Shown here piece by piece: positions 2,740 to 3,385 of a stretch of DNA of 5,663 nucleotides. The notes beneath the pieces were generated by a model that was given only the letters and a program-made list of their open reading frames with translations, ran no database searches and was not told where the DNA came from. The stretch comes from a bacterium (GTDB lineage Bacteria; UBP18; UBA7526): contig JAUXAI010000068.1 in NCBI GenBank assembly GCA_030619985.1, positions 1-5,663 on the forward strand. Direction: 5' to 3'. The position numbers and the translations under genes are program-made. Every line of letters starts with the position of its first letter. Position 1 is the first letter of the stretch.

Positions 2740-3042
2740 ATGATGGAGAAAAAAGGTAAGTATCCTTTCAAAGTAGTCTTAATAGCCATTCTTTTATTAA
2801 TCTTCTTTCTCGCTTATCTCTTCCTCTCTGGATATCTCAACCTGAGGAAGGTGGGTCAGAGATTGGCGAGAATAGAGGAGGAGAATGAGAGGCTCGTTCA
2901 GGAGAATAAGAGGCTGGAGGAGGAGATAAAGGCCCTGGAAGGGGACCCCTTCTATATTGAGAAGATTGCACGGGAAGAACTAGGAATGGTAAAGAAGGGC
3001 GAGATCGTCTACGAGATCATCTCTTCTGAGGAAGAGAAGTAG
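2740..3042 (+). CDS. FtsB/DivIC-family septum-formation protein
   Basis: The 100-residue protein has the full FtsB/DivIC layout: a short basic cytoplasmic N-terminus, one membrane helix at about 10-30, a heptad coiled coil rich in Glu/Leu/Arg at about 33-67, and the conserved tail DPFYIEKIAREELGMVKKGE at 69-88. In the family this bitopic protein joins FtsL and FtsQ/DivIB in the divisome and helps activate septal peptidoglycan synthesis by FtsWI. Placement directly after eno matches the eno-ftsB order known from many bacteria, which supports the call. Two adjacent ATGs (2740 and 2743) could start it; the purine stretch GAAGAG at 2731-2736 is better spaced (six bases) for 2743. The gene ends three bases before a promoter for the tRNA genes. 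I use the family name because FtsB and DivIC cannot be told apart from this sequence alone. Confidence 0.9.
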   Translation: MMEKKGKYPFKVVLIAILLLIFFLAYLFLSGYLNLRKVGQRLARIEEENERLVQENKRLEEEIKALEGDPFYIEKIAREELGMVKKGEIVYEIISSEEEK

Positions 3043-3045
3043 AAT

Positions 3046-3074
3046 TTGACAAATTAACTAATCTATGGTATATT
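3046..3074 (+). promoter_or_regulatory. Sigma-70 promoter of the tRNA genes
   Basis: A perfect -35 box TTGACA (3046-3051), a 17-base spacer and a -10 box TATATT (3069-3074, one mismatch to TATAAT) preceded by TGG, an extended -10. This is the strongest promoter in the window. The expected start point, about seven bases after the -10, is near 3081-3084, essentially at the first base of the tRNA. Confidence 0.85.
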
Positions 3075-3083
3075 GTGTAATAA

Positions 3084-3160
3084 AGCGGGGTAGTGGAGTC
3101 AGGTACCACGCGAGGCTCATAACCTCGAGGTCCCCGGTTCAAATCCGGGCCCCGCAACCA
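3084..3160 (+). tRNA. Initiator tRNA-fMet (CAT)
   Basis: The cloverleaf is complete: acceptor 3084-3090 with 3150-3156, D stem GTGG/CCAC, anticodon stem CGAGG/CCTCG around loop CTCATAA (anticodon CAT at 3118-3120), a five-base variable loop, T stem CCCGG/CCGGG around TTCAAAT, discriminator A and encoded CCA. Initiator identity rests on the unpaired 1:72 position, which lets formylase act and blocks elongation, on the T loop TTCAAAT and on the 3' sequence CCCCGCAACCA shared with bacterial fMet tRNAs. Three features are unusual: the mismatch is A1-A72 rather than C1-A72; the 11-24 pair is T-A, where E. coli fMet has A-U; and the three G-C pairs below the anticodon are reduced to two, with A29-U41. 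It has its own promoter and probably heads a two-tRNA transcript. Confidence 0.9.
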
Positions 3161-3283
3161 AATTTTCCTCTGGAAAATTTGACATCGAGCCCTGAAAGGG
3201 CGAGATACCTTAAAAAATATTAAGGTTTCTTGTCCCAACAAAGTTGGAACTCGAAATCAAATTTTTGATTGCATCAAAAATTT
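3160..3283 (+). other. Inter-tRNA spacer built of five consecutive stem-loops
   Basis: The spacer has no ORF of note but folds almost end to end. (1) AAATTTTCC/GGAAAATTT, loop TCT, 3160-3180. (2) GCCCT/AGGGC, loop GAA, 3189-3201, extendable to 3184-3206 through a GA/AG tandem mismatch and ATC/GAT. (3) ACCTTAA/TTAAGGT, six-base loop, 3207-3226. (4) CCAAC/GTTGG, loop AAA, 3235-3247, extendable to 3232-3250 with one C-A mismatch. (5) AAATTTTTGAT/ATCAAAAATTT, loop TGC, 3259-3283, ending exactly one base before the second tRNA. All basic stems are perfect. The first hairpin uses the last A of the tRNA CCA. Possible roles are tRNA processing signals, partial terminators or a small structured RNA; sequence alone does not choose. 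Confidence 0.75.
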
Positions 3284-3360
3284 GGCGGTGTAGCTCAGTT
3301 GGTTAGAGCAGGGGAATCATAATCCCCGTGTCCGGGGTTCGAGTCCCTGCACCGCCACCA
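3284..3360 (+). tRNA. tRNA with CAT anticodon, probably elongator tRNA-Met
   Basis: The cloverleaf is complete: acceptor GGCGGTG/CACCGCC fully paired, D stem GCTC/GAGC with loop AGTTGGTTA, anticodon stem GGGGA/TCCCC with loop ATCATAA (CAT at 3318-3320), variable loop GTGTC, T arm CGGGG-TTCGAGT-CCCTG with one G-T pair, discriminator A and encoded CCA. A paired 1:72 and the elongator-type T loop exclude an initiator. The GGCGGTGTAGCTCAG start and GAATCATAATC anticodon arm look most like bacterial elongator Met tRNAs from memory. The alternative is tRNA-Ile2, whose CAT anticodon is converted to lysidine by TilS; that possibility matters because tilS is the next gene. Presence of a tRNA is certain, its amino acid less so. 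Confidence 0.93.
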
Positions 3361-3361
3361 T

Positions 3362-3385
3362 GCGACCTTTAAGGTCGCCTTTCTT
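3362..3385 (+). terminator. Short terminator-like hairpin after the tRNA pair
   Basis: GCGACCT/AGGTCGC forms a perfect seven-base stem with loop TTA (3362-3378), followed by CTTTCTT. It starts two bases after the CCA of the second tRNA. The T tract is interrupted, so termination may be partial, but position and shape fit the end of the tRNA transcript. Confidence 0.65.

Follow-up and report, generated by a model that had tools for sequence, protein, structure and literature searches.

Introduction

Among the described systems closest to the element reported here, REP/BIME repeats are palindromes tagged with GTAG and CGTC (PMC3733652). They consist of short palindromic units with internal mismatches, which occur singly or as inverted (HH/TT) dimers in intergenic regions and sometimes inside other palindromes. 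Repetitive hairpin-forming and double-hairpin elements are also found in mitochondrial genomes, such as those of sponges, where single, double or multiple hairpins invade intergenic regions, show compensating changes in their stems and differ between close relatives (PMC2800124). MITEs of bacteria, among them the RU elements of enterobacteria, are non-coding, 100-170 bp long and of inverted-repeat structure, and they are present or absent at corresponding sites in relatives (PMC2759123).

The 123-base spacer between two bacterial tRNA-Met genes that we describe here resembles these systems. As in an inverted REP/BIME dimer, its left part matches one model on the plus strand and its right part matches the same model on the minus strand. 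However, its units (GAYMTCGA..GAGAKRCCTT) have no terminal GTAG or CGTC at the stem foot, the family genomes contain no RAYT gene (0/6, genomes 53-93% complete), and the element is tied to tRNA ends and present in few copies, compared to tens to thousands for REPs. The mitochondrial elements are organellar, whereas this one is bacterial, has a conserved tandem G.A unit and is anchored on the CCA of one tRNA and G1 of the next. It shares with MITEs the size range, the non-coding nature, the inverted-repeat structure and the presence or absence at corresponding sites in relatives, but where those carry a single pair of terminal repeats it strings together several hairpins, and neither a clear target duplication nor a parent transposon was found. 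In its behaviour the element resembles a BIME or MITE, yet it does not show the features that define GTAG/CGTC REPs. Small palindromic repeats are common in bacteria; we found no described family anchored so exactly on both tRNA ends, with the tRNA termini serving as hairpin feet.

The spacer is a pair of inverted modules

The window, i.e. the whole stretch of 5,663 nucleotides analysed here, makes up contig 78 of the draft genome of a bacterium (G000; 1.25 Mb). Judging from the translations, its open reading frames presumably encode TPR-repeat-like proteins, enolase and an FtsB/FtsL-type small coiled-coil protein, followed, after the second tRNA-Met, by what we take to be a TilS-like and a hypoxanthine phosphoribosyltransferase-like protein. 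The gene order is coiled-coil protein, tRNA-Met, 123-base spacer, tRNA-Met, TilS-like protein. The first tRNA-Met(cat) (3084-3160, plus strand) has an encoded CCA and is probably the initiator, as position 1 is unpaired with position 72 (A1 x A72); the second tRNA-Met(cat) occupies 3284-3360 on the same strand. Upstream of the pair lies a promoter-like site, TTGACA-17-TATATT (3046-3074, plus strand; 11/12 consensus bases, TG before the -10), and a terminator-like hairpin (3362-3378, plus strand) follows the second tRNA. Both are consensus matches only, but they frame the two tRNA genes and thereby suggest that these form one unit. In Rfam, only the two tRNAs reach the gathering threshold within the window and no family does so in the spacer, where a match to AaHKsRNA22 is weak (22.7 bits compared to a gathering score of 39.8); a known riboswitch or sRNA was therefore ruled out.

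An initial annotation of the spacer had described a chain of five stem-loops with stems of 9, 5, 7, 5 and 11 bp. All five are present at 3159-3284 and their stems are real, but the lengths needed revision. Hairpin 1 (3159-3181, plus strand; loop TCT) has 10 bp and, as had been recognized, takes its foot from the tRNA, with C and A of the CCA paired to TG. Hairpin 5 (3258-3284, plus strand; loop TGC) has 12 bp and does more than abut the next tRNA, since its closing pair, C3258-G3284, uses G1 of tRNA-Met. Stems 2 and 4 belong to longer units, extending outward over a tandem G.A (or U.C) internal loop (3181-3189/3201-3209 and 3224-3229/3253-3258). The left copy of this unit, termed unit X (3181-3211, plus strand; covariance-model match 38.0 bits), comprises an outer stem (3181-3186/3204-3209), the tandem G.A (3187-3188/3202-3203) and an inner stem (3189-3192/3198-3201). 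The right copy (3222-3258) is inverted and matches the model on the minus strand with 29.1 bits; both copies show covariation. Between them, the third hairpin of the chain, ACCTTAA..TTAAGGT (3207-3226, plus strand), forms the centre of the palindrome, which is weakly conserved and varies freely.

The consensus of unit X is GAYMTCGA-stem-loop-stem-GAGAKRCC with a tandem G.A internal loop, laid out in the spacer as TCTC-GA-GGCC..GGCC-GA-GAGA, and a strand-symmetric conserved CGA..GAG is present in both halves of the spacer copies. As unit 4 is the reverse complement of unit 2, the spacer represents a head-to-head, REP/BIME-like pair between two flanking hairpins. Each basic module combines an outer hairpin with unit X, and two of them in inverted orientation make up the 123-bp spacer.

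Covariation favours a chain of hairpins

The spacer folds far better than shuffled sequence, in agreement with the structure initially proposed: its minimum free energy is -45.3 kcal/mol compared to -22.2 ± 3.25 for 200 dinucleotide shuffles (z = -7.1), none of which (0/200) was as stable. The opposite strand also folds (z = -6.8). In the single-sequence energy optimum, hairpins 2-4 are joined in a four-way junction closed by CGAG/CTCG, which for the window sequence is about 2 kcal/mol better than the hairpin chain. This junction is possible because four segments, s1 GACATCGAG, s2 CGAGATACC, s3 GGTTTCTTG and s4 CTCGAAATC, are mutually complementary.

An alignment of seven full copies separated the two folds. 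The chain pairing (s1:s2 and s3:s4) is formed in 97.4% of the cells, ten of which are changed on both sides, and its covariation score was reached by 0/500 shuffles. In the four-way pairing, no pair is changed on both sides, and the score was reached by 500/500 shuffles. A set of 24 units drawn from the two halves forms the outer stem and the first inner pair in 98.6% of the cells, with 27 doubly changed cells. Covariation in the relatives thus favours the chain, which indicates that the single-sequence energy optimum is misleading; a four-way junction or bistable RNA, although favoured by the energy in the window, was ruled out. The separate hairpins of the initial annotation are hence backed by compensating changes in relatives. 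By itself, this covariation would also be expected from selection on RNA.

The repeat is dispersed over tRNA junctions

Missed in the initial annotation was the spacer's membership of a dispersed repeat family. Searching the window's own genome at the DNA level led to a second copy of the architecture between tRNA-Arg(tct) and tRNA-His, and among the relatives G002 carries an ortholog of the window spacer that is 90% identical. We fetched the tRNA surroundings of six genomes of this bacterial family and read the tRNA spacers. Five kinds of junction (fMet-Met, Arg-His, Met-Val, Leu-Gly and Arg-Ser) carry full copies, seven in all; a sixth, Gln-Glu, has a longer variant, and incomplete or tandem copies follow Asp, Arg and Gln or precede Glu and Tyr. 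The module also occurs singly, in direct tandem and nested, and the copies are variable and often truncated.

The distribution rests on model searches of genomes. With the unit covariance model, the best matches lie at tRNA loci; part of this bias is ascertainment, since the model was trained on copies at tRNAs. Among the good family matches, the clear non-tRNA exceptions are confined to one G005 contig, where two sites lie about 1 kb from each other, one of them below E = 1e-3. An exact pattern scan across 84,980 species returned 17 stretches, with several matches only in JAHIPW01 and JAUWXM01 (G004 and G001 of the family); the 13 species with one match each are about the number expected from a rough estimate and were treated as chance. 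Viral contigs contained 0 matches to the unit pattern, which ruled out a viral origin of the unit.

A group of 17.8-bit matches to the unit model in G004 stems from another dispersed repeat, CTCCGAACTCTCCCTCGGGG-ACCTCGAGTCCCCTCGGGACGAGAGG, which is distinct from the spacer element. It lies away from tRNAs on contigs of G004 (e.g. L155 392-504, L157, L162 and L163) and in G000 (L158), is partly tandem at 43-bp spacing, and forms a hairpin with the same tandem G.A layout as unit X.

Presence and absence of the repeat in relatives

Corresponding junctions differ strongly between relatives. The Arg(gcg)-Ser junction measures 129 nt with the element in G004 compared to 1 nt in G001; the values are 110 nt (G001) and 3 nt (G003) for Leu-Gly, 107 nt (G000) and 4 nt (G001) for Arg-His, and 161 nt (G000) and 1 nt (G001) for Gln-Glu. 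The fMet-Met junction of G004 has the right hairpin only, the Arg-His copy of G002 has lost both units and kept the two outer hairpins, and some orthologous junctions contain unrelated spacers instead. As orthologous junctions often lack the element, some of them with spacers of 1-4 nt, it is apparently not required for tRNA processing. The element-free Arg(tct)-His and Gln(ctg)-Glu junctions of G001 (L076 and L077) also lack an encoded CCA, which the element-bearing orthologs have, and the element-free junctions could be secondary losses. Encoded CCA is patchy among the tRNAs of the six genomes, with Thr(tgt) and Gln(ttg) also lacking it. In G002 (contig 45, L140), the Gln-Glu junction that bears the element in relatives holds a 2.2-kb insert with a tRNA-Glu relic and three ORFs of 152, 268 and 202 aa, the third of which looks PIN-like.

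The tRNA ends usually take part in the outer hairpins. In nearly all of 14 tabulated instances of hairpin 1, which include partial copies and one relic, the hairpin begins on CA of the encoded CCA, paired with TG of the element, and the right hairpin closes on, or directly before, the first one or two bases of the next tRNA. At the Met-Val junction, G001 and G004 keep the pairing of the hairpin 1 stem with completely different sequence. In the Asp copy of G004, the CCA used by hairpin 1 is a repeated tRNA end brought by another small insert, and in the Gln-Glu copy of G005 it is likewise a repeat of the tRNA end. Small inserts directly behind the tRNA end, repeating its 3' end (CCCCGCCA or GCCA), occur after tRNA-Asp (L112 and L118) and tRNA-Gln (L122); they look as if the insertion had duplicated the tRNA 3' end.

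Origin of the repeat

Taken together, the spacer probably belongs to a palindromic repeat that is specific to this lineage and acts like a small, non-autonomous mobile element specialized for tRNA junctions, a reading that draws on only seven full copies. The insert occupies exactly the gap from the CCA of one tRNA to G1 of the next, so that the tRNA ends supply the foot pairs of the outer hairpins. By folding locally in the transcript, it should not hinder the folding and trimming of either tRNA, and the cell most likely tolerates the element at tRNA ends because it folds on itself. The repeat probably moves as a unit, most likely as DNA, with hairpin or single-strand intermediates and a mobilizing enzyme bringing about its spread and turnover. 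The loop of hairpin 1 is inverted between orthologs (TCT in the window, AGA in G002), as would be expected from DNA hairpin inversion or strand switching.

Searches for a mobilizing enzyme gave the following picture. The Y1 transposase (RAYT; PF01797) was found in 0/6 family genomes (53-93% complete), with control genomes positive, and the IS110 transposase (PF02371) in none, by which mobilization as a RAYT-dependent REP and by IS110 were ruled out. Tyrosine recombinases are present in one to three copies per genome and rve-type genes in only 2/6 genomes. An overall palindrome is present in the element; neither a clear target-site duplication nor a parent transposon was seen.

The initial annotation had suggested a role in 5'/3' processing, and a processing signal in which CCA tail and G1 are paired into the flanking stems, directing or restraining the end-cutting enzymes, is the strongest of the alternatives, albeit an unlikely one. 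It accords with the uptake of CA by hairpin 1 in nearly all copies, the closure of hairpin 5 on or next to G1, and stems kept by compensating changes even with a wholly different hairpin 1 at Met-Val. Against it, most tRNA junctions lack the element, and in relatives the corresponding junctions function with spacers of 0-4 nt or have unrelated ones; the copies are frequently truncated; and the two halves are oppositely oriented in the transcript, so that the right half is not the same RNA signal. Processing as a needed function is thus not supported.

Somewhat less probable still is that the palindromes grow and swap without transposition or an element-specific enzyme, through errors of replication (template switching, hairpin priming) where tRNA genes form secondary structures. 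The replaced hairpin 1 sequence with pairing kept, the inverted loop, the nested and truncated copies and the outcome of the transposase searches would all fit. However, the GAYMTCGA..GAGAKRCC unit recurs at unlinked junctions, and this requires copying between loci, for which local errors alone are insufficient.

That the tRNA precursor releases a small structured RNA with its own function, possibly a bistable chain/four-way switch, is very improbable: in the window, only about 2 kcal/mol separates the two folds, and the AaHKsRNA22 match hints in this direction, but the four-way pairs lack conservation, the spacer matches no Rfam family above its cut-off, the copies are variable and often truncated, and the 1-4 nt or unrelated spacers of relatives speak against a needed function here as well. 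Stepwise termination, also proposed initially, does not agree with the sole plus-strand terminator-like site being that at 3362-3378, after the second tRNA; with none in the spacer, a chain of intrinsic terminators (stem, then U run) was rejected.

Read as a mobile repeat, the element shows how a compact bacterial genome tolerates inserts within tRNA transcription units, and it would serve as a marker for a mobility mechanism.

tRNA genes nested in tRNA halves

When tRNA flanks were compared by BLAST with every tRNA in the six genomes, tRNA halves appeared beside about 25 intact tRNAs, a count that omits neighbours with a shared remnant. In all of these cases, the halves correspond to the amino acid of the inner tRNA. 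Where both halves fall on one best subject, the anticodon is the same in 7/8, the eighth being an Arg(tcg) that matches Arg(ccg); single-half calls are weaker because tRNA 5' halves resemble each other. Such loci include L011:905-1125, L103 and L109 in G004, L046 (~2950-3140) in G000, L075 in G001, L059 and L065 in G002, L092, L094 and L099 in G003, and L117 and L119 in G005, and the ortholog of the window's second tRNA is itself a nested case in G004. Many inner tRNAs are flanked by inverted-repeat arms such as CCCCGCACC and GGTGCGGGG.

The nested tRNAs look like in-place replacement by inserted cassettes. Same-specificity copies that appear to replace tRNA genes would amount to a new way for tRNA genes to turn over; a literature search for tRNA genes nested in broken tRNAs, with most subscription journals outside its scope, found nothing similar. 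Junction palindromes, hairpin inserts in tRNA loops and tRNA-carrying cassettes might even belong to one structure-directed system, a tentative idea that we regard as possible but doubtful. DNA hairpins would then enter other hairpins at their tips or feet, with tRNA genes as main targets, and tRNA-breaking insertions would survive only when bringing a working tRNA of the same specificity.

A broken tRNA-Arg occurs in G000 (contig 8, L048 1430-1660) and G001 (L076), with separate palindromic inserts in the D loop, the anticodon region and the T loop. The anticodon insert holds an intact tRNA-Arg(tcg).
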